From: Chloroflexota bacterium
Lineage (GTDB): Bacteria; Chloroflexota; Anaerolineae; Anaerolineales; UBA4823
NCBI GenBank assembly: GCA_020349245.1
Contig: CP070764.1
Location: 903,257 to 967,256, forward strand
Direction of reading: 5' to 3'
DNA: 64,000 bases
Shown: piece after piece, positions 3,096 to 43,797 of the stretch
Layout: each line of letters begins with the position of its first letter
Numbering within the stretch: the first letter of the stretch is position 1
The notes under the pieces: model-generated
Told to the model about the DNA's origin: nothing
Seen by the model: only the letters and a program-made list of their open reading frames with translations
The model's database searches: none
Made by a program: the position numbers and the translations under genes

Positions 3096-3608
3096 TCAAT
3101 CCGCCGGTGCTATCTGAGTTGTCTCGCCCTCGATCTGCCAGACTTTCTCCGCTCGATCGACAAAAAGCACGCCGTCCAGGTGATCTACCTCGTGTTGAAA
3201 AATCCTCGCCAACCAGCCGGTGGCTTTGATCTTCTGCGGCTGCCCATGCCGGTTGAGACCTTTAACCGTAACGCTTTCTGACCGCTCAACATCTCCCAGG
3301 ATCCGGGGAATAGACAGACAACCTTCGGTGCCCATTTCTTGTTCGGAAGAAAAGCGGGTGATCTTCGGATTGACAACCAAATACAGTTTCGGAGGTTTTT
3401 CTTCGTCCTCGCTATCGTTAAATTCAACCACGATCACCCTCAAGGGTACGTTTACCTGCGGTGCAGCCAGCCCAACACCCGGTGCGGCTCGCATCGTATC
3501 GACCATATCATCGATCAGCGTTTGCAGCTCCGCTCCAAATGAGGTCACTTTCCGTGCCTTTTCGCGGAGAACTTTTTCAGGAACAGTTACAATGTCACGA
3601 ATAGCCAT
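3096..3608 (-). CDS. def: Peptide deformylase
   Basis: Removes the formyl group from the N-terminal methionine of new proteins, with a metal ion at the active site. All three family motifs are present in order: GVGLAAPQ, EGCLSIP (metal-binding Cys) and HEVDHLDG (two metal-binding His and the catalytic Glu). The length of 170 residues is normal. The start overlaps the 3' end of the upstream membrane-protein gene by 14 nt, so the two are probably co-transcribed, with recF downstream. Confidence 0.97.
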   Translation of the reverse strand: MAIRDIVTVPEKVLREKARKVTSFGAELQTLIDDMVDTMRAAPGVGLAAPQVNVPLRVIVVEFNDSEDEEKPPKLYLVVNPKITRFSSEQEMGTEGCLSIPRILGDVERSESVTVKGLNRHGQPQKIKATGWLARIFQHEVDHLDGVLFVDRAEKVWQIEGETTQIAPAD

Positions 3609-5328
3609 CAGGTCCTAATTCTACCCCGAAATCTTCATCATAATCATCGAAATACTCATCATCTTCATCATCTTCGGTCTTTTGATGGTACACCTCGATC
3701 ACATCTACAAATCGCTTCCTTTGTTTTGCCGCTTCCACCTTTTCTTTCTCCCTGCGGAGGGCGTAAATCCGGTTGAATATATCTTGCTGCACTCTCGCAG
3801 GGTCGTGCACATTTCTAAACTCAAATTGCGTGTCACCGACATTTATCCTCACCAAACCATAATTGAGCATGTAGCCCAGAAATCCCACTCGCTCATGTTC
3901 CAAGCTGAGGATATTTTCAACGGGTGCAGATTTCTTAACCTCGGTGCCCAGAGGTCTACGTTCAATATCAAATATAAATTTATCCGTCACCTGGTAGATA
4001 TCATTGCGCCAGTCTATGTAACGGTAGATCCACCAGGGAATAAGCACCAGGAGAATGAATGCCACACATAATACCAGCAAAGTCTCTGCAAATTGAGCAG
4101 TGAATTGAGCATTGACCACCGCATACAGGATGTAGGACATTCCGAGGACCACGAGGAAAACCATGAATGTTGGAAGCCAGATCTTGCCGAACAATGTGGG
4201 CCAATACTTACGATAAGTAATCACGTTATCAACTTCGAACCGCATCGTGAAAAAGTTTTGGAAGTAGTTCCGCCAGAATCCACTTGCCTCTTCCTGGGGT
4301 CCCTCTGGGATCTCCTGACCGCTTTCATCAATGGGCAGGCTTAAAGGTTCACCGTTTTCCCATCCCAGGCGCTCCCGCAGTTCCCTATCGATCTCCCGCT
4401 TTTCTTTACGTTCCGATCCTCTCTGAGTCCGCTCCCGATATTCATTGATGTAGGCAACCAATACCTGTGGGTCCCTTAAATTCCGAAATGTGATCTCGCC
4501 TGTAAAGGTCCTGACGATTACGCTCCCATAATGGAATAGTCGCCCAAAAAATGTGGTGGTGGTATTCACTGCCAGGATGGTCGTCAATGGTGCTTCATCC
4601 CGGCTTTCGTAAAGCCAAACCACTTTTTCAACCCAGACCACGCGCTGGTCAGTGATGATGTAGTAATCATTACCCCAATCGATCCAGTTCCAAACTCCCC
4701 AGATAACTGCGAGCAAAGCCAAACTCATTGAACACACAGCGCCAGTCGTCCAGAGCGTGGTTGAGATATCACTGGTAGACACCGCGAAGATGATAGCGAG
4801 TGCCCCTAAGAAGAAGATCACTGGTCCAGCCAGGCTGAACACGAAAATCGCTTCATGCTTTCGAGCAACGAAAGCAATTATTTCATCTTCGCCTACCCAG
4901 GAAAATTTACGAGTCCGGACCAGCCACTGGCTCTCCGGATCCCGCGCCAGCCAGGGTTTGATCTGTGGAAAGTCGATCAACAACTGGTAGAACTCCGCCT
5001 CTTCCAGAAAAAGCAGCTTCGTCGGTTCCTCTGTAGTGATATACGCGTCTTCTGAATGTCCATAGAGCATTTCTTCTTCAATGAAGAAATCACCGTGGGA
5101 TAATTTTGAATGCTGGACTTTATCCTCCTCACCCGCGATAAATACACTCCCGGATTGGATAATGTAAAAATCATCTTCTGCCTCTCGATCAACAAAAAGT
5201 GGCTGCCATGGTTCGAGGGATAACTGCCTGAATCTGCTTGCGATCACTGACAGTTGAGCGTTATTCAGGTCATCGAAAATCCTGACCCCCCGCAAAACCT
5301 GAAAATTTGGGTCTACCGATGAGCTCAT
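3595..5328 (-). CDS. Cyclic-nucleotide-binding-like / PH-like membrane protein
   Basis: A 577-residue protein in three parts. Residues about 1-125 resemble a cyclic-nucleotide-binding fold (a FYIIQSGSVFI strand pair and SHGDFFIEEEMLYG where the phosphate-binding cassette would be). The cassette lacks the usual GE...A/R pattern, so nucleotide binding is doubtful. Two similar units follow, each with two membrane helices and a bacterial PH-like domain. The repeat is visible as WIDWGNDYYIITDQRV in the first unit and YIDWRNDIYQVTDKF in the second. The C-terminus is strongly acidic (DDEDDEYFDDYDEDF). A membrane-linked sensor or scaffold is plausible but not shown. It overlaps def and is divergent from the phosphohexomutase gene. 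Confidence 0.8.
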   Translation of the reverse strand: MSSSVDPNFQVLRGVRIFDDLNNAQLSVIASRFRQLSLEPWQPLFVDREAEDDFYIIQSGSVFIAGEEDKVQHSKLSHGDFFIEEEMLYGHSEDAYITTEEPTKLLFLEEAEFYQLLIDFPQIKPWLARDPESQWLVRTRKFSWVGEDEIIAFVARKHEAIFVFSLAGPVIFFLGALAIIFAVSTSDISTTLWTTGAVCSMSLALLAVIWGVWNWIDWGNDYYIITDQRVVWVEKVVWLYESRDEAPLTTILAVNTTTTFFGRLFHYGSVIVRTFTGEITFRNLRDPQVLVAYINEYRERTQRGSERKEKREIDRELRERLGWENGEPLSLPIDESGQEIPEGPQEEASGFWRNYFQNFFTMRFEVDNVITYRKYWPTLFGKIWLPTFMVFLVVLGMSYILYAVVNAQFTAQFAETLLVLCVAFILLVLIPWWIYRYIDWRNDIYQVTDKFIFDIERRPLGTEVKKSAPVENILSLEHERVGFLGYMLNYGLVRINVGDTQFEFRNVHDPARVQQDIFNRIYALRREKEKVEAAKQRKRFVDVIEVYHQKTEDDEDDEYFDDYDEDFGVELGPDGYS

Positions 5329-5417: not shown

Positions 5418-6878
5418 ATGCCTATACACTTTGGTACCGATGGCTGGCGAGCTGTTATTTCGGATACCTTCACCTTTCACAACTTGCGATTAGTGACTCA
5501 AGCGATTGCAGACGCTATCCGTTCGGATGCATGGAATGATGATGTCCCGCTGGGTGAAACACCTGATCCAGATAAGATAATCGTTGGGTTCGATACCCGC
5601 TTCCTATCAGACCGCTACGCCGGTGAGGTGGCAAGAGTTTTAGCAGCAAATGGGTATACTGTTTTATTGACCCAGGGCGATGCCCCGACACCAGCGATTT
5701 CGTACACCGTTCGTTATACACATGCAATCGCTGGTGTGGTGATCACCGCCTCCCATAATGCGCCTCGTTACAACGGGGTCAAGTTAAAAGCTTCCTATGG
5801 CGGCTCAGCCCTGCAGGAACAATGTCGCCGGGTGGAAGTATATCTCAACGATAACGAAGAACGGGGACGTGGACCAAACATGATGGACTACCAGCAAGCG
5901 CGCAAACTCGGCCTGCTACAGCGCTTTAACCCCCTGCCAGATTATTATGCCCATTTGCGAAGCTTGATCGATTTTGATGCCATTGCGGACAATCCTCAAC
6001 GTATTGTGGTTGATTCAATGTATGGCTCTGGCCGGGGGATTATCAAGGGTATCCTGAAAGGAACTGGTTGTGAAGTACGGGAGATCCGGGGCGAAATGAA
6101 CCCCGGTTTTGGCGGAGTACATCCAGAGCCGATCGCCCGATATCTGGGCAGTCTTGCAGGGGCGATCAGCACCGGAATGGGTGACCTAGGACTGGCAACA
6201 GATGGCGACGGAGATCGGATCGGTGCGATGGATGGTAGAGGAAACTATATAGACCCACATAAAATTATGGCTTTGGCATTGAGATACCTGGTGGAGGAGA
6301 GAGGTTGGCATGGCCCCGCAGTACGAACAGTATCTACGACAAGAATGATCGATCGCCTAGCAAAAGCTCACAATTTACCGGTTTACGAAACGCCCGTAGG
6401 GTTCAATTTCATTGCCGATTATATGCTCAAAGAGGATATTCTTATTGGGGGAGAGGAATCCGGCGGGATATCTTTCCGGGGTCATATCCCAGAAGGAGAT
6501 GGATCCCTCATGGCTTTATTGTTAATCGAAATGGTAGCAAAACTTGGTGTTTCCCTGCATGATTTGGTTGAGGATTTAATTAATAAATATGGACCAGTTT
6601 TCTATGAACGCACGGATTTACGCTTGAGCCATCCGGTCGCCAAGGCCCAGATGACACGCCGCCTTACAGAAGAAACGCCACCAAAAATTGGTGGCGAAGA
6701 GGTGATCGATGTTCAATCTCTGGATGGCGTGAAATTTATCCTCAAGGATGATTCCTGGTTGTTGATCCGACCTTCTGGGACAGAACCGGTACTACGAGTG
6801 TATGCGGAAGGGCGTTCAGCTGAGAAAGTTCAAGAATTGTTGAAATTCGGGGAGGAGGTAGCTGCAAGCACAACTTGA
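5418..6878 (+). CDS. Phosphoglucomutase/phosphomannomutase family protein
   Basis: An alpha-D-phosphohexomutase, which interconverts hexose 1- and 6-phosphates via a phosphoserine. The active-site loop TASHNAPRYNG places the phosphoserine at Ser112. The metal-binding loop is DGDGDRIG (Asp262, 264, 266), the sugar-binding loop is GEESGG, and the C-terminal phosphate-binding loop is RPSGTEP. The 486-residue length fits the family. Substrate preference (glucose, mannose or glucosamine) cannot be read safely. It is a single gene, divergent from the membrane protein and ended by a strong hairpin. Confidence 0.92.
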   Translation: MPIHFGTDGWRAVISDTFTFHNLRLVTQAIADAIRSDAWNDDVPLGETPDPDKIIVGFDTRFLSDRYAGEVARVLAANGYTVLLTQGDAPTPAISYTVRYTHAIAGVVITASHNAPRYNGVKLKASYGGSALQEQCRRVEVYLNDNEERGRGPNMMDYQQARKLGLLQRFNPLPDYYAHLRSLIDFDAIADNPQRIVVDSMYGSGRGIIKGILKGTGCEVREIRGEMNPGFGGVHPEPIARYLGSLAGAISTGMGDLGLATDGDGDRIGAMDGRGNYIDPHKIMALALRYLVEERGWHGPAVRTVSTTRMIDRLAKAHNLPVYETPVGFNFIADYMLKEDILIGGEESGGISFRGHIPEGDGSLMALLLIEMVAKLGVSLHDLVEDLINKYGPVFYERTDLRLSHPVAKAQMTRRLTEETPPKIGGEEVIDVQSLDGVKFILKDDSWLLIRPSGTEPVLRVYAEGRSAEKVQELLKFGEEVAASTT

Positions 6879-6961: not shown

Positions 6962-7534
6962 TCAGGTAGCAGTTCGTAACCTTCTTGCCAAGAATATAAC
7001 TACCACCAAGACCAGCGCCAGACCAACCATGGCTGGGATACCCACGTCTTCCACAAACCCGGTATCGGGAAGTGCAGAAGCGGTTGGGGTTGCTGTCAAT
7101 CTGCCGGCAGCAGCCTCCGTCAGTAGCGCAGAGACTGTTGCTGTCCTGTCTATTGTCGGTGAAACAAGAATATCTGTCGGTTGAGCAACCACTAGGGTGG
7201 GAGATGGGCTTGCTGATGCAGTTGCAGTGGGTGGAATGGGAGTAACAGTCGGTGTTGCGGTAAACTTTGCTGCTAATCCAGTTTCAACAGCTGCCTGTGC
7301 CAATTGGGTATTCTGGGCATTTATTGCCGCAACTTGAGTGGCTCTTTGATCCCGCTGCCGGGGTTGATACACCAAGGCATACAGCGCAAGGCAAATCAAG
7401 GACAACAGCATCACACCGCCAATAACACCAGCTACTATATAGAATGTGCGATTCGCAGATTCCTCTGGGGGGGATGAATCATCCGAGCCCATATCAAATT
7501 CGTTGTCATCAAGATCCATATCTTCAAAGGCCAT
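6962..7534 (-). CDS. Membrane protein with an LPXTG-type sorting signal
   Basis: From the ATG at 7534 (190 residues) the start is set by AGGAGGAG a few bases upstream; the frame is open for 24 more codons but without such a site. It has an acidic N-terminus (MAFEDMDLDDNEFD), a membrane helix near residues 30-55, and a Thr/Pro/Ala-rich stretch of the TPTVTPIPPTATAS type. The C-terminus has LPDTG, a hydrophobic segment and RRLR, the layout of a sortase sorting signal. No sortase gene is in the window. It is the last gene of the MutL-like operon, 55 nt after the preceding gene. Function unknown. Confidence 0.75.
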   Translation of the reverse strand: MAFEDMDLDDNEFDMGSDDSSPPEESANRTFYIVAGVIGGVMLLSLICLALYALVYQPRQRDQRATQVAAINAQNTQLAQAAVETGLAAKFTATPTVTPIPPTATASASPSPTLVVAQPTDILVSPTIDRTATVSALLTEAAAGRLTATPTASALPDTGFVEDVGIPAMVGLALVLVVVIFLARRLRTAT

Positions 7535-7589
7535 TGTCCATTCTCCTCCTAATGTTCTCGGTGAAAGAGGGCTTGCCACATACCCATTT

Positions 7590-8654
7590 TTACTCCAAAA
7601 CTTCAAGGTTTGCCAGTGGTAATTTTACTTTAATACTGTTATCCAGTTCAACTTCCGCTGAAGTGGTTTTCAAACCATTGGGAAGCTTTTCCAAGCCTGG
7701 TTTTACTGCGATCAAGGTCCCTACCTGTGATTGATAAGGAGAGCGTACAATTCTGACCTTTTGACCAGGAGAAAATAAGGTTGCCTCCCGCGGTTCATGG
7801 ACCATGCGGTTGACCGGCAAGGAGATAAATACCTCTGGTCTTGCGTTTGCATACCGGTCCAAACTTTCCCCATTAACGACGATCTCACGTCGATCGCTGG
7901 TAATCAGCAGGTTAAAGGCCAATGAATTGATTGGCAACAGACCGAACCCTTCAATAACAACAATAGGAAATGGCATTTCTTCAGCCACGGGGATGAGAGA
8001 GCTAGCCATGCTGGATAAAATTAGTCCCCGTAAAGGCAAATCAGCAGCTGTTCGAAGGACTTGTGCATCGGCACAAAAGCCAGCGAAAACCACTGTCTCG
8101 CGTAAATCGATATCCAGCTGATCTGCGGAAAAAATATTCTCCGCTTTTTTCAGTAGGACACGCAATATGCCAAAACTTACCTTGTCATTGCCCCATACCC
8201 CCTGGACCAGGGCACCAATCGACTCGATAACCACTCCCCGCCCTGGGATTAATGAGATTACCTCACCCGGTAACCCTGCTAACAGCTGGAAAGGTTCAAC
8301 CTCTTTTTCAATCAGTACTTTACCATTCCCAACCTGGATTATTCTTCCTGAACAAGGAGCTCTTACAACTCGTTTCCCCCATCCCACTGGTCCAGCAAGT
8401 ACATCGCCCTCAGATACCGATTCCCCTGGTTGGCGTTCGAGATATCGATCGGCGTCAACCATACTCACTCCGAGGCCACGGACCAGATCTAAGATCACAT
8501 GTTGTGGTTCGAGGTTTGCTTCAGCAACAACATCATTTGCAGAGAGATTTTGACCTTTTCGCACCAAGACGCGTCCCGTGATTGGCAACACGCGATGTCT
8601 GCGGATCCGTGTCATGGGTAAGAAGTGGGAAACTGGTGCAAGTAGATCACTCAT
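7590..8654 (-). CDS. Uncharacterised protein with barrel-sandwich-like and KOW-like parts
   Basis: A 354-residue protein that I cannot assign to a named family. Near residues 25-125 it has alternating beta segments of the kind seen in barrel-sandwich hybrid domains (GRVLVRKGQNL, GESVSEGDVLAGP, APCSGRIIQVGNGKVLI). There is no lipoyl or biotinyl lysine motif. Residues about 300-350 (PGQKVRIVRSPYQSQVGTL) look like a KOW/SH3-type barrel. No signal peptide or membrane segment is visible, so it is probably cytoplasmic. It lies 64 nt downstream of the MutL-like gene and upstream of the LPXTG gene, so it is likely part of the same operon. Confidence 0.7.
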   Translation of the reverse strand: MSDLLAPVSHFLPMTRIRRHRVLPITGRVLVRKGQNLSANDVVAEANLEPQHVILDLVRGLGVSMVDADRYLERQPGESVSEGDVLAGPVGWGKRVVRAPCSGRIIQVGNGKVLIEKEVEPFQLLAGLPGEVISLIPGRGVVIESIGALVQGVWGNDKVSFGILRVLLKKAENIFSADQLDIDLRETVVFAGFCADAQVLRTAADLPLRGLILSSMASSLIPVAEEMPFPIVVIEGFGLLPINSLAFNLLITSDRREIVVNGESLDRYANARPEVFISLPVNRMVHEPREATLFSPGQKVRIVRSPYQSQVGTLIAVKPGLEKLPNGLKTTSAEVELDNSIKVKLPLANLEVLE

Positions 8655-8718
8655 TTATTATCCATTCGTAAAAGATAATTCGAAGAATTGGTTGCAAGAA
8701 TGATTCCAATAATGGTTT

Positions 8719-10473
8719 TTAACCTCCCAGTGTCCATAACCACTTTTTGTACAGATCCTGTCGGTGAACCGGATCCCTGGGTATGCGAAGTGGACGTCCT
8801 CGAGCGTCAATCACGACTCCGAGGATTCCCCCAACTACCCTTACGCTGCCGCCACGACCAGCACCACCCAGGCCAACATCTGCCCTGTGTAAAGGTTGCA
8901 GGCGTAATTTCGCTGGTTCTCCCAGAGGAATTGGTAATGCTTCCAGGGAACCCTGTTTGATATCAAAACTCGTTTCATCTCCAGATTCATACGTGACCCG
9001 TAATCGGAGGATTGGTGTACCTGGGCGAGAATTTGAGACCGGCGTGATGACGGTGGCCAAACTCAAGAAGGCACTCGATTCCAGTACCTGAACTGATAGA
9101 TAGGGGTTGATTCGAGCAGCTGCACCAAGTGCAGCTGCCAAATTGCTCTGATCCAAAACGATTGTCGTAATACTACTGGGTTGAATCGCATCCAAGAGGG
9201 TCAAGAGGCTATGACCAGTGGAGGGTGCCTTGGTGAGCACACTTCCGGTGGCTAGAATTGGTTCAAACCAGGGCAACATACCCACTCCCATGCGTTTAAT
9301 TTGAGGGGGAAATCCCTCTTGTGCGCTGAAGATCGCCCTGCGTATTGCCTGCCGAGCCAGTGCTTCTTCGATTGCCAAATCCTCGTTGGAAACCGGTAAA
9401 CTGGATGGATATATTTGCTTGTTATAAAGATAATCCCGTAAATAATCTTCTCCCACTTCCAGGGGAATCCAACGCTGGATATCTTCAAGTGAACCGTTTC
9501 GTAATACCCCGGAGACCTGCCTGCCTAATCCAAACTCCGGGAAGACCCCTAAACTAAGTTCACCGTCAAAAGCGGAGGCGACAGTTGTCGCCGAAGCACC
9601 GATATCAACACCTAAAACTCCCTTGCCAGGATCATAAACCTTACTGAGAAATTGGACAATCCGGCCGAAAGCGGTTGAGGTTGGCGTTAAATTGGAACCC
9701 GACCATTCATCAAAATCACCAACACCAGGAATGCGAGTCGAACGGATCGAACGAAATATTTCTGCCATCCTGGCCCGAGCTGGCGACAGCTGTTCAGTTT
9801 CGATCGAAGGTCGTACATTCGGGGCAAAATAATTCTTTGTCAACATACCCAGCCGGGTAGTCACCGCTTCATTCAGAGCTTGATTTCCAACATAGAGAAC
9901 TTCCGGTCTCTGCTCCGGAGCCATAAAAGAACAAGCCAAGCCAACAGATTCGATCATCCTCAGGACAGAGTTTGTAGCTCCTTGCTCAGTGCCACCTGCT
10001 ATGACAATCACATCGGGTCTTTGTCTCAATATCATGTCGAGACGTTCCTCGGGCTTTTTACGATCATTCAAACCGAACGTCTCAACAACCTCTGCATAGA
10101 TCGTCGAAACCAAATGCTTTGCACTAGCTAAAGAGATATCCTCCAGTAACCCTACTGCGATAACGCGTAATGGAGGTCCTGCGGATAAGGTTCCCACGAA
10201 CATATCTATCCCAGATCCATCGAGTTTCCCCGGAATAATCAAGCGGTCATTATCTCCGATTAATTCCCGACCGGTAATCACTTCTAACTGATTAATTGCC
10301 CGGGTGATCCCCTCACCAATGTGATTATGTGGAGCCTGAGCTGTCGTCCTTGATGTTCCAATGGCAATAAACCGGTAGCGTCCTTCAACAACATCAAACA
10401 GAATTGCCCGAGTATTGATCTCACCAACGTCAACAGCTAACATTGAAGAACCGATATGTTCAGGTATATCCAT
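8719..10473 (-). CDS. MutL/GlmL-type ASKHA-fold protein
   Basis: About 584 residues, similar to the glutamate mutase 'MutL' (GlmL) family, which is unrelated to the mismatch-repair MutL. Known members sit beside adenosylcobalamin mutases and are thought to be reactivating chaperones. Counting from a TTG codon 6 nt upstream of the chosen ATG, there are two actin-like phosphate loops (AVDVGE at 15-20, GVDIGASATT at 290-299) and a glycine-rich AGGTEQGA at 161-168. No cobalamin enzyme is encoded nearby. The partners are membrane proteins, so this copy may power or regulate an envelope complex, as PilM or FtsA do; that is inference. The ATG at 10473 lies 10 nt after the upstream stop codon. Confidence 0.75.
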   Translation of the reverse strand: MDIPEHIGSSMLAVDVGEINTRAILFDVVEGRYRFIAIGTSRTTAQAPHNHIGEGITRAINQLEVITGRELIGDNDRLIIPGKLDGSGIDMFVGTLSAGPPLRVIAVGLLEDISLASAKHLVSTIYAEVVETFGLNDRKKPEERLDMILRQRPDVIVIAGGTEQGATNSVLRMIESVGLACSFMAPEQRPEVLYVGNQALNEAVTTRLGMLTKNYFAPNVRPSIETEQLSPARARMAEIFRSIRSTRIPGVGDFDEWSGSNLTPTSTAFGRIVQFLSKVYDPGKGVLGVDIGASATTVASAFDGELSLGVFPEFGLGRQVSGVLRNGSLEDIQRWIPLEVGEDYLRDYLYNKQIYPSSLPVSNEDLAIEEALARQAIRRAIFSAQEGFPPQIKRMGVGMLPWFEPILATGSVLTKAPSTGHSLLTLLDAIQPSSITTIVLDQSNLAAALGAAARINPYLSVQVLESSAFLSLATVITPVSNSRPGTPILRLRVTYESGDETSFDIKQGSLEALPIPLGEPAKLRLQPLHRADVGLGGAGRGGSVRVVGGILGVVIDARGRPLRIPRDPVHRQDLYKKWLWTLGG

Positions 10474-10483
10474 AACCAATTGA

Positions 10484-11179
10484 TCAGGGAATGACCAATC
10501 CCAAAAACTCGCGAATTAAATTAGCTGAAAAAACTACTTGTCCAATCAGGGCTGTCAGTGCTGCACTGAAAATTCCTGCGAAAATGAATCCAAAAGTAAT
10601 GGCGATAAATACCTGCCCAACCTGGCCCAGTCCATTAATCCAAGCCTGGATTTGCGTTCTTTCCGCACCTTGAGAAATTTGGCTAAATTGGAAATACGCC
10701 AATGTGGCAATTGTGCCAATTAAAATAATTGCTCCATTCAGCAACCGTAGTCCAAGACTGGCATTAAAAGCCTGGGATGATTGGATATCGAAGAGATTGA
10801 TGGAGGCCAGTACCTGGGGGATCACCGTACCTGTTACTGCTCCGCCGATCGCAGCTGCTGCGCTCACCCCGACCAAGTAAGCCATGGGGAGATTTCCAAG
10901 AAATGCAAGTCGGGGGGATAATTTCATGAATAATAAAGCTGCTAGAACCAGCGGAAAAAGGGAGAGAATTTGTTCACCCCGATCACTGATGAAAAGAGGT
11001 GAAAAAAGCCGGGGCAGGATAATGTTATAGACCGCAACCACTGCTGCAAAGCCGGCAGAGACACCGATAAAAATGTGCAATGTCATCCGAAATAGAGGAT
11101 TATCACCAATGAGATAGCTAAAAACCAGCAGGGTAAGGACAAACGCGAAGAATGAACCGATCCAGTCTGCCAAGCCCAT
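10484..11179 (-). CDS. Uncharacterised polytopic membrane protein (MutL-like operon)
   Basis: About 231 residues, with roughly six hydrophobic helices from the N-terminus (MGLADWIGSFFAFVLTLLVF) to the end. The ATG at 11179 overlaps the stop of the zinc-ribbon gene in a TGATG arrangement, which fixes the start and implies translational coupling; the upstream extension of the frame is the shadow of the neighbouring gene. Segments rich in Gly/Ala (AAAAIGGAVTGTVI) suggest tight helix packing. I do not recognise a family. It may form part of a membrane complex with the other products of this operon. Confidence 0.7.
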   Translation of the reverse strand: MGLADWIGSFFAFVLTLLVFSYLIGDNPLFRMTLHIFIGVSAGFAAVVAVYNIILPRLFSPLFISDRGEQILSLFPLVLAALLFMKLSPRLAFLGNLPMAYLVGVSAAAAIGGAVTGTVIPQVLASINLFDIQSSQAFNASLGLRLLNGAIILIGTIATLAYFQFSQISQGAERTQIQAWINGLGQVGQVFIAITFGFIFAGIFSAALTALIGQVVFSANLIREFLGLVIP

Positions 11180-12786
11180 CACAGCACCTTTTCTTCTCCA
11201 CGAGCGGTTCGGGATAGCTCGGGGATCACATAATATACCAGGCCACCGATCAAGATCATCAAGGCAGCGATGAATGTTCCCACACTGAATGCATCCCATA
11301 CGGCTCTTGGGAAATCACTTTCATCGCTGAATTGAGCATAAGCTGCCCCACCACGCAGTCCGACAACCAATCCATTTAATGGTTGGGGATCACTTTCATA
11401 ATATGGTCTTACAATAGGTTCTAACTGCGCACTCGTAATCGCAATTAAACTGGTCAGAACCTGGGAATTGGTTATCGTTGGACCAAATTGTTCAATCCAA
11501 GTCCGGACCATATCAGGATCATCAGCCAGTAAAACAATCATCGCGAAGTCCCTGATCTCAACAATGCCAGCAGTCGCCGATAAGCTGTTGCTTGAAGTTG
11601 ATTCCCAGGCCGAGGAACCTTCGATTGTGAAGGGGATAGTCCCCTGTGGATTCTCAATAAAACTTACCAAACCTGCTGCTCCGCCAGGCAAATATCCGAG
11701 GTTGACATAATCGAATCCTGGTGAAGTTCCCTGTCCGGATTCGAAGGAGCGGATAAACCTTTCTGCGAGGACAGGTCCGTTTGGAGAAGTTGAGATCAAA
11801 GTTAACAATGCACCTTGCGTCAGCAAATGATTGAATACGGGAGTGGCAGCGGAATCCAATTCGGTAACAACACCCGGTTGATAATCAAACCCCACTAATA
11901 TTTGTGAGTTTTCTGGTAGCTCACTGATCAATCGGTAGACTTCAGCACTCCCTTCGTCATAAAAAGGGAGCGGCATTTCCTGGCGAGAAATTACAATTGG
12001 CCAAAAAACACCAATTAACAGTAAGATAGCTATCCCCCAGCGCAGGACATGCTGTTGAGAGATCGACCGGCGCTGTGGAATTGGCAGTGATTCTCCCTCC
12101 TCCTGTATCAGGTTGTTCAATAATTCAATATGAGCGCGTTGACTCGATGAGAGCCTTAGATTGGTGGTATATGCCTTGGATTTTCGAATTCGCGCCGCGC
12201 CAGCTTCCGCTGAGAGCACCCCTCTCAATCCAGATAGCGGCCCAACGCGCTCAGAATCCCTGGATGATTCACCACTCGCCTGGGTACCGGGGACAATTTC
12301 TGGAGGGATCCCGGATTCATCTCCAAAGGCAGGTAAATCCTGATCATGTACTTCACCCAGTTCTTCAGACGCTCCATCCAATGCACTCTCCAGCCATGGT
12401 GGAATTTCTGGGGACTCATCTTCTTCTCGACCCGATAAAAAGGGCGAGGCAGGAACTTCATCGAATTCCGTCTCCTCACCACGGTATTCACCAGTTATCC
12501 AATCTGAAATCGCGTCTGAGGGTTGTCCAAGACCGGAATCCTGTTCACCCGTTTCTATCGTTTCCTCTTGGTCCGGTTGCTTCAGCGCTCGGAGCCAATC
12601 TGAGGCTTCTGAATCTCCCTCCGGTTGTCCCAATCCAGCGCGGTTCTCCCACAACCCGGCATCGCTATGAGTGCCAGGGTCACCTGACTCCCCTGCTGGA
12701 GGGTGCAGATTGGCTAAGCAGTAATCGCAAAGTGTATTTTCAAAAGGGTTTGGTTTCCCACAAAATGGGCAGTTGATTTCTTCCAT
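11179..12786 (-). CDS. Zinc-ribbon membrane protein with a large extracytoplasmic domain
   Basis: 535 residues. A zinc ribbon opens the protein (Cys6, Cys9, Cys20, Cys23; CPFCGKPNPFENTLCDYC). A low-complexity acidic stretch runs to about residue 200. A membrane helix (WGIAILLLIGVFWPIVI) lies near 246-262, then a folded domain of about 230 residues outside the membrane, and a second helix near 505-525 followed by a short basic tail. So the ribbon faces the cytoplasm and the large domain lies outside. No enzyme motif is visible. Its start overlaps the previous stop as TAATG, and its own stop overlaps the next start. Confidence 0.72.
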   Translation of the reverse strand: MEEINCPFCGKPNPFENTLCDYCLANLHPPAGESGDPGTHSDAGLWENRAGLGQPEGDSEASDWLRALKQPDQEETIETGEQDSGLGQPSDAISDWITGEYRGEETEFDEVPASPFLSGREEDESPEIPPWLESALDGASEELGEVHDQDLPAFGDESGIPPEIVPGTQASGESSRDSERVGPLSGLRGVLSAEAGAARIRKSKAYTTNLRLSSSQRAHIELLNNLIQEEGESLPIPQRRSISQQHVLRWGIAILLLIGVFWPIVISRQEMPLPFYDEGSAEVYRLISELPENSQILVGFDYQPGVVTELDSAATPVFNHLLTQGALLTLISTSPNGPVLAERFIRSFESGQGTSPGFDYVNLGYLPGGAAGLVSFIENPQGTIPFTIEGSSAWESTSSNSLSATAGIVEIRDFAMIVLLADDPDMVRTWIEQFGPTITNSQVLTSLIAITSAQLEPIVRPYYESDPQPLNGLVVGLRGGAAYAQFSDESDFPRAVWDAFSVGTFIAALMILIGGLVYYVIPELSRTARGEEKVL

Positions 12787-13403
12787 TAACTTCCCCCATA
12801 AGGTCGATCAGCACCACTGAGTATCCGCAAACCAGCCGCGATAATCCCCAGTGATACGCCTAACAAGATTCCACGAGCCCCGGCAACCGCCGGTACTTTT
12901 CCGATCCAAATCCGCAGCTCGGACAATCCGGGAATGTCAATTCCGAACAAGGAACCCGTCATCAGAAGGATAACCACAGCGGTGACGATGAATACAATCG
13001 ACAACAAATTGGGTTTTCGCCGCAGGATACGGACACCAGCATATATCAAAACCACAGCCAGTATGCCCATCAAGCTCGCTTCAATCGGAATCAAGACATA
13101 ATTGAATATCCAAAGCGAGTATGTGGCTGTCGGTCCAAACCATCCTGCGACACCCAGCGTAATCACCATTCCTATTAGTAATGCAATGTTGTTTGCTCGA
13201 TTTGGTTGATCGGAAAAGGATTTTCGCCAGTGAACAATAAACAGGTTGGCAACCCCAACCAGTAACGCGGCTGCTACGATTATGGTAGCCCATTCCAACA
13301 AAACGACTCTCAGGTTAACCAACAAATCAAACTGGAGAAAGTAACCCAGGAGAACGATGATCCCGACACCGATCGCTAACGCAGCATAAATTGGGTTTCT
13401 CAT
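12786..13403 (-). CDS. Uncharacterised polytopic membrane protein (MutL-like operon)
   Basis: 205 residues with about six hydrophobic helices and short loops. It opens MRNPIYAALAIGVGIIVLLGYF and ends GGS. I do not recognise a family. It overlaps the upstream gene by 4 nt (ATGA) and the downstream zinc-ribbon gene by TAATG, so the three are surely translated from one mRNA. Confidence 0.7.
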   Translation of the reverse strand: MRNPIYAALAIGVGIIVLLGYFLQFDLLVNLRVVLLEWATIIVAAALLVGVANLFIVHWRKSFSDQPNRANNIALLIGMVITLGVAGWFGPTATYSLWIFNYVLIPIEASLMGILAVVLIYAGVRILRRKPNLLSIVFIVTAVVILLMTGSLFGIDIPGLSELRIWIGKVPAVAGARGILLGVSLGIIAAGLRILSGADRPYGGS

Positions 13404-14143
13404 AGCACACTAAAGAGTTTCAGGATGGCACCGATCAAGATCAAGCCTATGATTATCCAGCGCAGGATATCCTGTGCATGTAAGCTGGCGTAATGCATAT
13501 CGCCAGCATCCAGATATGCCCCCCCAGCATAAGTTTCTTCGCCAATTAGAGGTTCTTGTGCAGTAGCGAATAACACAGCTTGACCGGTCAGATTATCTGT
13601 GCCTCCGAGAGTCATGCTTTCGGTTCGCTCCGCAGCATCTGCGATCAATGCAACTTCATTGCCAAAACTGCCGATCAACAAATTAGCACCGATATCTTCT
13701 TCCTGGATGAAGGATAGTGTACCTGCGGCATAGGAAAACGGTGTTAAACCGGTTATCCTGCTCCGCATCGGATCGGATTCGACGCCCAGGTATTTTGCGG
13801 CTTCACCCTGGGTATCCTGAGAAAGAATGCCCAAAGAACCTTCACCAACCGTGGAGACTGGGGGACGATCACTGATGGATGTTGAGCGGGCAATACGCAT
13901 CAATATACTCAATCCGACATATCCAATGGAGCTTTGGGGACTTAGGAGTTGTCCCCTTCCCAGTGATATATGGAGGCGATTACCGGCTTCAACCGCTAAC
14001 CCAATCGCCCTCTGCAGGCGCGCATAAGCAGGTATTTCCCGCAGCATTGGTCTTTCACGTTGCCGGAAAATAATTGCCAACGCAAGTATCAAGCCGAAGA
14101 ACAGTAAGACAAAAATTAATCCCAGTATGTTGAGACTGTCCAA
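13400..14143 (-). CDS. Uncharacterised membrane protein, possibly DUF6754-like
   Basis: 247 residues: an N-terminal helix (LGLIFVLLFFGLILALAIIF), a soluble middle of about 190 residues (around 28-220), and a C-terminal helix (ILRWIIIGLILIGAILKLF). The middle has HISLGRGQL and a repeated ALIADAAERTESM-like pattern. It may belong to the DUF6754 family, but I recall that only weakly. The start is a TTG at 14143, supported by GGGAGAG a few nt upstream and by its position 2 nt after the previous stop. It is coupled to the next gene by ATGA. Confidence 0.68.
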   Translation of the reverse strand: MDSLNILGLIFVLLFFGLILALAIIFRQRERPMLREIPAYARLQRAIGLAVEAGNRLHISLGRGQLLSPQSSIGYVGLSILMRIARSTSISDRPPVSTVGEGSLGILSQDTQGEAAKYLGVESDPMRSRITGLTPFSYAAGTLSFIQEEDIGANLLIGSFGNEVALIADAAERTESMTLGGTDNLTGQAVLFATAQEPLIGEETYAGGAYLDAGDMHYASLHAQDILRWIIIGLILIGAILKLFSVL

Positions 14144-14145
14144 AG

Positions 14146-14394
14146 TCAGCTCTCCCTTAAAAGGTAGGCGATAAATTCTTCCCTTTGACTGTCATCCTCC
14201 AGCACACCTGCCAGTGCCTTAAAATACTTATCAGGCACAATTCCACTCAAGATTGGTTGTCCGATATATATCACCTGGGCACCAATCAGTGAAAGCGGAC
14301 CTGCTGCCTCGAGGAAAGAAGCCACCAGGTTTTGTAACCCCCACCGGTGCAGGGCATTCGCCCATACCCGCCAGATATGGTGGTTATTTTTCAT
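14146..14394 (-). CDS. Small protein, first gene of the MutL-like operon
   Basis: 82 residues, basic at the start (MKNNHHIWRVWANALHRWG), with a moderately hydrophobic centre and an acidic helix at the end (DDSQREEFIAYLLRES). No family recognised. It is supported as a gene by its position 2 nt before the next gene, whose ribosome binding site lies in its last codons, and by an extended -10 promoter element only 7 nt before its ATG. It could be a peripheral membrane protein or a regulator. Confidence 0.6.
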   Translation of the reverse strand: MKNNHHIWRVWANALHRWGLQNLVASFLEAAGPLSLIGAQVIYIGQPILSGIVPDKYFKALAGVLEDDSQREEFIAYLLRES

Positions 14395-14401
14395 TGTTGC
14401 A

Positions 14402-14410
14402 AGTATAGCA
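14402..14410 (-). promoter_or_regulatory. Extended -10 promoter element of the MutL-like operon
   Basis: Read on the - strand this is TGCTATACT, an extended -10. It ends 7 nt before the ATG at 14394, so the transcript would begin at or very near the start codon (leaderless). No good -35 element is present, which is common for extended -10 promoters. Confidence 0.5.
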
Positions 14411-14525
14411 TAATTCCTATTCTGCTAGATTGGCTCCATTTTAAGACTGCCATGGGATGTGGTCAAGTAAGTTTGCAAAATTGTAAATTTTTCCGATTGG
14501 AGATAAACAACCCAACAATAGTCTA

Positions 14526-14565
14526 AATATATGACAGGTCACAGGTGTTTTTGATGTCATATATT
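14526..14565. promoter_or_regulatory. Perfect inverted repeat upstream of nifJ
   Basis: An 11-bp arm at 14526-14536 is repeated in perfect inverse at 14555-14565, with an 18-nt spacer. The flanks (AATAGT on the left, ACTATT on the right) also match with small offsets. The size and half-site spacing suggest a regulator-binding site or two bound dimers. It lies between the divergent MutL-like operon and nifJ and could act on either. Confidence 0.55.
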
Positions 14566-14576
14566 ACTATTTGGTT

Positions 14577-14601
14577 CTCACAGTTAAGACTAAACTATGA
14601 G
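14577..14601. promoter_or_regulatory. Imperfect inverted repeat upstream of nifJ
   Basis: CTCACAGTT (14577-14585) and AACTATGAG (14593-14601) match in inverse at 8 of 9 positions, with a 7-nt spacer. It lies 11 bp after the larger repeat and may overlap the nifJ promoter (TTGGTT at 14571 is a possible -35). Confidence 0.35.
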
Positions 14602-14654
14602 ATTAGGATGCTCGTCATTTTATCAAAGCTGCCCGGCTTTTAAGAAACACCCGA

Positions 14655-14666
14655 ACGGTATACCGT
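14655..14666. promoter_or_regulatory. 12-bp perfect palindrome in the nifJ leader
   Basis: ACGGTATACCGT is a perfect palindrome 24 bp before the nifJ start. It could be an operator half-set or a small RNA element; no family is identified. Confidence 0.35.
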
Positions 14667-14690
14667 AAAAATTTGAGATCCGGAGAAATC

Positions 14691-43724: not shown

Positions 43725-43797
43725 CGCCCCCGGCGGGATTCGAACCCACAACCTTAGGTTTAGAAGACCTCTGCTCTGTCCTTTGAGCTACGGGGGC
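43725..43797 (-). tRNA. tRNA-Arg (anticodon UCU)
   Basis: A 73-nt cloverleaf read on the - strand. Acceptor GCCCCCG pairs with CGGGGGC over 7 bp; D-stem GCTC/GAGC; anticodon loop CTTCTAA with anticodon TCT; T-arm GTGGG-TTCGAAT-CCCGC with one G-U pair; G as discriminator. The 3' CCA is not encoded. One pair at the top of the anticodon stem (G27-A43) is a mismatch. Confidence 0.93.

Follow-up and report, generated by a model that had tools for sequence, protein, structure and literature searches.

What does a protein of the MutL/GlmL type do in an operon of membrane and surface proteins that has no gene for a vitamin B12-dependent mutase? The question is raised by a 64,000-nucleotide (nt) stretch of contig CP070764.1 from a Chloroflexota bacterium (the window, below), in which eight genes, designated g1 to g8, occupy positions 6962 to 14394, every one on the minus strand. 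An initial annotation made from the sequence alone had described this gene set and suggested that the MutL-like protein, g6, drives or gates an envelope complex. Our own reading, held tentatively and at a little under even confidence, is that the operon encodes an ASKHA-scaffolded, membrane-spanning envelope complex that works much as PilM does with PilN and is not a chaperone system for a B12 enzyme. The gene order, the relationship of g6 to GlmL, and a motif array in the membrane protein g4 are the results on which this reading is built.

Gene order and layout of the operon

In a sample of 201 Chloroflexota genomes, which was accompanied by 14 control genomes, the order and strand of g1 to g6 are identical in all 32 complete loci, the window counted. 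This takes the operon far beyond chance and strongly supports a conserved transcription unit, as the initial annotation had supposed. Nine other loci in this sample are incomplete; eight of them reach contig ends, and one has no detectable g1. A second sample, consisting of the best 80 of 573 relatives from a contig scan of named genomes and made up entirely of Anaerolineales-type loci, has all eight genes in order at 56 loci, and most of the others are truncated, many by contig ends. One record, titled Chthonomonas calidirosea (another phylum; L170), has an Anaerolineales-type eight-gene operon and is probably a mislabelled bin.

The family of g2, DUF6754 (PF20539), is present in 44 of the 201 Chloroflexota genomes and in none of the 14 controls. 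Within the window's class, an iterated g2 profile detects the protein in 61 of 120 genomes. The gene for g8 is almost confined to that class. In genomes whose loci we label Chloroflexia-like, a label assigned by inference, g7 is absent from the operon but is found as a single copy elsewhere (9 of 9 such genomes tested). Among the controls, PF13941, the Pfam family of g6, gave matches below the cut-off in two archaea. A search of the available literature found no mention of DUF6754 or of the operon.

Within the window, all eight genes were found with the coordinates (Table 1) and the overlaps and gaps first described for them. The junctions are an ATGA overlap between g2 and g3, a TAATG link between g3 and g4, and a TGATG link between g4 and g5, followed by spacings of 10 nt (g5 to g6), 64 nt (g6 to g7), and 55 nt (g7 to g8). 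No Pfam family scores above its cut-off for g1, g3, g5, or g7.

Table 1. Genes of the operon and the region upstream of it, in window coordinates (aa, amino acids; TM, transmembrane helix)
Feature	Position	Strand	Description
g1	14146-14394	-	82-aa protein; opens the operon; homologue in first place at nearly all loci
g2	13400-14143	-	247 aa; DUF6754 (PF20539); TM, predicted cytosolic Rossmann-like alpha/beta domain, TM
g3	12786-13403	-	205-aa polytopic membrane protein; conserved C-terminal RG...G...R motif
g4	11179-12786	-	Zinc ribbon, acidic arm with motifs, TM at ~246, predicted extracytoplasmic Rossmann-like domain, TM at ~495
g5	10484-11179 (start ATG at 11179)	-	231-aa polytopic membrane protein; conserved G...GT..PQ motif
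g6	8719-10473 (start ATG at 10473)	-	~584 aa; MutL-like ASKHA-fold protein with extra C-terminal domain of ~120 aa
g7	7590-8654	-	354 aa; barrel-sandwich-like N-terminal part, C-terminal KOW domain
g8	6962-7534 (start ATG at 7534)	-	Single-TM, Pro/Thr/Ser-rich protein; LPDTG sortase signal
Divergent intergenic region 5' of g1	14395-14672		Faces a pyruvate:ferredoxin oxidoreductase-like open reading frame in the window

Downstream of the operon lies a phosphoglucomutase-like open reading frame (ORF; window 5418-6878), relatives of which flank the operon in 52 loci. Beyond it, a 577-aa protein (window 3595-5328) appears by eye to have a cyclic-nucleotide-binding domain and membrane segments; about 17 loci apparently have a relative of it on the downstream side of the operon. 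The sole Rfam match within the window is a tRNA gene at 43725-43797.

Relationship of g6 to GlmL

The assignment of g6 as MutL-like was sound at the level of the Pfam family: the protein scores 202.2 bits with PF13941 (gathering score, 27), with an E value of 1.7e-59, and its ASKHA motifs can be aligned over about 450 residues with those of GlmL/MutL, the accessory protein of glutamate mutase. However, it scores 81.7 bits with NF040745 and 59.4 bits with TIGR01319, the two models for GlmL itself, and so misses both cut-offs (475 and 204 bits, respectively). The true GlmLs of Chloroflexota score 567 to 600 bits with NF040745 (L119 to L121) and 396 to 473 bits with TIGR01319; L119 to L121 pass both models, and L122 passes TIGR01319 and narrowly misses NF040745, at 438 bits. 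In a tree built by a quick method and including some long rows, a branch of 0.97 separates the 70 g6 rows from GlmL (Shimodaira-Hasegawa approximate likelihood-ratio support, 100). The clade check proposed in the initial annotation therefore places g6 in a clade of its own. Alignments further show that full-length g6 rows have in common a domain of about 120 residues at the C terminus (VIDARGRPL...W) that is absent from GlmL. Membrane partners, too, distinguish g6 from GlmL.

The predicted ASKHA nucleotide site of g6 appears to be largely kept. The phosphate-1 motif has D in 77% or E in 21% of rows and G in 97%, the phosphate-2 motif has D in 85% and G in 97%, and the adenosine motif has G in 98%. 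In searches of the PDB set, the g6 profile gave weak matches only. EutA and the diol-dehydratase reactivases are likewise ASKHA-fold reactivases of B12 enzymes; none of these families was matched, and the operon has no gene for a B12 lyase or dehydratase.

Two variants of MutL-type proteins were also seen. The Chloroflexia-like g6 proteins (L037, L043 to L047, and L133, along with L038, L042, and L134) have an extra tail with a basic-aromatic, KRRGWFGRKK-like end. In a genome of the window's class, a 1,264-aa ORF (L118:4233-8027) combines a weak N-terminal B12-binding match with a C-terminal MutL domain (PF13941 at residues 713 to 1234) and is a possible mutase-GlmL fusion.

Membrane proteins, the PxWL array, and g7

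Membership of g2 in DUF6754, which the initial annotation did not name, is clear (82.2 bits; gathering score, 27; E value, 4.4e-23), and what is new here is the predicted fold and the operon context. The AlphaFold2 model of g2 has a mean predicted local distance difference test (pLDDT) score of 96.3 (67 sequences), and that of the C-terminal 300 residues of g4 has a score of 91.9 (60 sequences). Each model consists of an alpha/beta domain flanked by two membrane helices; we call these domains Rossmann-like from our reading of the strand-helix order together with fold hits. Lysine and arginine residues in g2 number 4.12 per 15 residues on the domain side after the first transmembrane helix versus 0.10 before that helix, and on account of the distribution of positive residues the g2 domain is predicted to be cytosolic and the g4 domain to lie outside. 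Homology between the two Rossmann-like domains, or of either with g7, was considered and found to be unsupported by hhalign. Sequence searches of the PDB with g2, g3, g4, and g5 returned no meaningful match.

The zinc-ribbon protein with an outside domain described in the initial annotation is g4, which has a CxxC pair at residues 6 and 20; its zinc-ribbon matches are weak. The LPXTG protein, g8, was also correctly recognized: it matches the TIGR01167 anchor model (17.8 bits; cut-off, 15.9) and combines the LPXTG signal with a transmembrane segment and a basic tail, as expected of a sortase substrate; three matches to sortases were found in the genome. A PADLOC scan for anti-phage defense systems returned only g8, with a weak match (E value, 0.00094) over its membrane and low-complexity part that falls short of a family match, and a role in defense was rejected.

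Between its zinc ribbon and first membrane helix, g4 has a cytosolic arm in which a motif of the form [ED][LV]P[DA]WL[RQ] (here PxWL) is repeated at a median spacing of 25 residues, with a maximum of 63 copies per protein. In the arms of full-operon g4 proteins, 470 copies were observed, compared with 8.6 in shuffled sequences (about 55-fold), and in the zinc-ribbon proteins of loci that lack g2, g3, and g5, 42 were observed, compared with 0.76. Among 14,558 ORFs of the fetched loci, at least three copies are found in g4 proteins and in five other ORFs. Four of these five are zinc-ribbon proteins directly 5' of g6 that the g4 profile had missed, and the fifth is an antisense ORF across g4. A DNA-pattern search for pairs of the motif in five genomes was limited by codon choice to a degree that precludes a verdict on specificity; in one of the five, G118, its sole cluster of matches was within g4. 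We take the motifs to be putative docking peptides for the g6-g7 pair. In three Chloroflexia-like loci (L038, L042, and L134), g6 itself carries PxWL motifs.

For g7, which had been described as a barrel-sandwich/KOW-like protein, the KOW domain stands: the g7 profile matches solved KOW domains of SPT5 (E value, 1.8e-6) and of Thermotoga maritima NusG (3.9e-6). Matches for the barrel-sandwich part are weaker and are to the extra domain of Thermotoga NusG and to glycine-cleavage H proteins. The likeness to NusG and SPT5 lies in the C-terminal KOW domain; g7 differs from them in its N-terminal part and has no match to either protein as a whole.

Alternative roles and a candidate envelope complex

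If g6 were a GlmL-like chaperone or reactivase, the operon could service methylmalonyl-CoA mutase, perhaps by tethering the mutase or its cofactor at the membrane. This explanation, which we consider unlikely, draws on the position of g6 within Pfam MutL and on two genomic associations. McmB, the mutase subunit that binds B12, is head-to-head with g1, mostly with MeaB behind it, in 24 of the 79 Anaerolineales loci with at least 700 bp upstream (about 30%; three contigs are in both locus sets), at a distance of no more than 450 bp in 23 of the 24, which belong to one Anaerolineales group (for example, L063:6521-6964 and L163:1002-2003). PF01642 (methylmalonyl-CoA mutase) is found in 44 of 46 full-operon genomes versus 110 of 155 others (Fisher P = 0.00025, uncorrected for phylogeny or genome size). 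However, no McmB-MeaB pair is next to the operon in the loci read outside the order Anaerolineales, and the pair in the window's genome (435 to 437 kb) is about 470 kb from the operon (910 to 917 kb). The initial statement that no cobalamin mutase is present holds for the window; the genome has two PF01642 matches in addition to McmB and MeaB. No cobalamin riboswitch was found in the window or in seven loci, and the intergenic region upstream of g1 has no Rfam match. One counterexample is G072, which retains all eight genes intact without PF01642, an McmB-sized B12 protein, or MeaB (no models specific to glutamate mutase or the aminomutases were used in this search). On the g6 tree, this genome lies among lineages that have the mutase, and in two of these McmB directly adjoins the operon; all of its sampled relatives have the mutase. 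Four sampled genomes of family f30 keep g6 and lack the same three B12 proteins, so that g6 is found where no B12 mutase was detected, within the same limit on glutamate mutase and aminomutase models. G176 also keeps g6 without PF01642 and MeaB, but it encodes a true GlmL next to a B12-binding ORF; three of the four true GlmLs (G089, G176, and G060) adjoin such an ORF. Because all of these genomes keep g6 without methylmalonyl-CoA mutase or MeaB, g6 is not tied to that enzyme, in which it again differs from GlmL, and the possibility that the MutL-like protein always accompanies a cobalamin mutase and groups with such proteins is not borne out. A B12 link for the operon is nonetheless not absent.

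A different challenge comes from the smaller core of this system. Searches with PF13941 and with profiles showed that relatives of g6 also occur in families that lack g2, g3, and g5. The usual arrangement there is a zinc-ribbon gene upstream of g6 and g7 downstream of it (the zinc-ribbon gene was not found upstream of g6 in families f30 and f56 or at loci L126 and L127). The most constant partner of g6 is g7. Of the proposal that the operon is a membrane system, the conserved order stands, whereas the core of zinc-ribbon/PxWL protein, MutL-like protein, and g7 does not require the membrane genes as partners. It is conceivable, but again improbable in our judgment, that this core serves mainly in the cytosol, as a module for regulation or assembly that the KOW domain of g7 might link to, for instance, transcription or translation, with the membrane genes as one output among several. 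The occurrence of the core or the g6-g7 pair alone in many families and the SPT5/NusG matches of g7 are consistent with such a module, as are the neighbors of g7 in six Chloroflexia-like loci that were read, where it is near receiver-domain genes and, in four of the six, also near a histidine-kinase gene. KOW folds occur beyond transcription, however, and these neighbors may reflect chance synteny. In five loci (L231, L232, L234, L235, and L237), ATP synthase genes come next; in L233, the regulators are near g7 without them. The presence of membrane genes requires at least three changes on the g6 tree, and a single clade of all g6 rows with membrane genes was rejected (approximately unbiased test, P = 0.0014); therefore, loci with the core alone do not just make up a branch of their own. 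When the tree is rooted on GlmL, the membrane-gene lineages are deep, which speaks against a primarily cytosolic module, so loss of the membrane genes from an ancestral operon would be the simplest reading. Far less probable still is an Hsp70-like g6, whose ASKHA domain would be coupled to a C-terminal domain that grips hydrophobic peptides such as PxWL. The extra domain behind the ASKHA domain and the repeated hydrophobic peptides in the arm of g4 would suit this arrangement, but the g6 profile matched no Hsp70 in the PDB set.

The envelope complex that we favor has its closest precedents in the type IV pilus platform PilM-PilN-PilO and in GspL, which belongs to type II secretion; in these systems, a cytosolic ASKHA-fold protein is encoded with membrane proteins. 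The structure of PilM, an actin-like ATP-binding protein, has been solved with PilN1-15, a short peptide from the cytosolic part of its membrane partner (PMC6325625); the PxWL array of the g4 arm would be the counterpart of that peptide. The ASKHA nucleotide-site motifs of g6 recall, by sequence, the PilM/FtsA platform. The operon differs in having no pilin or secretin, and Pfam and NCBIfam scans gave no PilM or FtsA match for g6 and no PilN or PilO match for g2 to g5. No known system has all of its defining features represented in the operon.

Gene order and coupling point to a single complex. Its membrane part would comprise g2, g3, g4, and g5, with one Rossmann-like domain inside (g2) and another outside (g4), and g6, with its predicted nucleotide-binding ASKHA fold, would be the cytosolic hub. 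By analogy with PilM, the hub may dock on the arm of g4, where the zinc ribbon and the repeated PxWL motifs would hold the g6-g7 pair through g6, with its added domain, or g7, with its barrel-sandwich and KOW parts. The nucleotide state of g6 would then control how the complex assembles or which conformation it adopts, and an event outside the cell, at g4 and the sortase-anchored g8, could thereby be coupled to the cytosol. A more elaborate version, which we regard as doubtful, is a membrane machine found throughout the phylum, in which a nucleotide-controlled hub recruited from a B12-chaperone fold binds, via its added domain or g7, the multivalent PxWL array of a transmembrane scaffold; the resulting clusters would connect the cytosol with a sensing domain on the outside.

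Several observations weigh against an envelope complex of this kind. The window's own g4 has few PxWL copies, namely one exact motif (PPWL at residue 130) and the near forms SDWL (63) and SDWI (95); the g4 of family f17 lacks both arm and motifs, and the array is missing in a few others. The GlmL-type TTD after the phosphate-2 motif is degenerate in g6. Foldseek searches of the PDB with the g2 and g4 models returned nothing at an E value of ≤0.001, and among structural relatives of g2 or g4 none hints at a function. The McmB-MeaB neighborhood and the co-occurrence with the mutase suggest a different role. Finally, because the core exists where g2, g3, and g5 are absent and the membrane genes have changed repeatedly on the tree, the g6-g7 pair may not have had its original role at the membrane.

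For annotation, these results carry a warning, namely that the name "glutamate mutase MutL" should not be transferred to g6-type genes. Experiments could start from the array of PxWL peptides, from the g6-g7 pair, or from the two confident structural models. If our reading is right, an ASKHA subfamily tied by annotation to B12 enzymes has another job, and the operon, whose order is conserved across the phylum, would encode an envelope complex without a described counterpart in the little-studied Chloroflexota.

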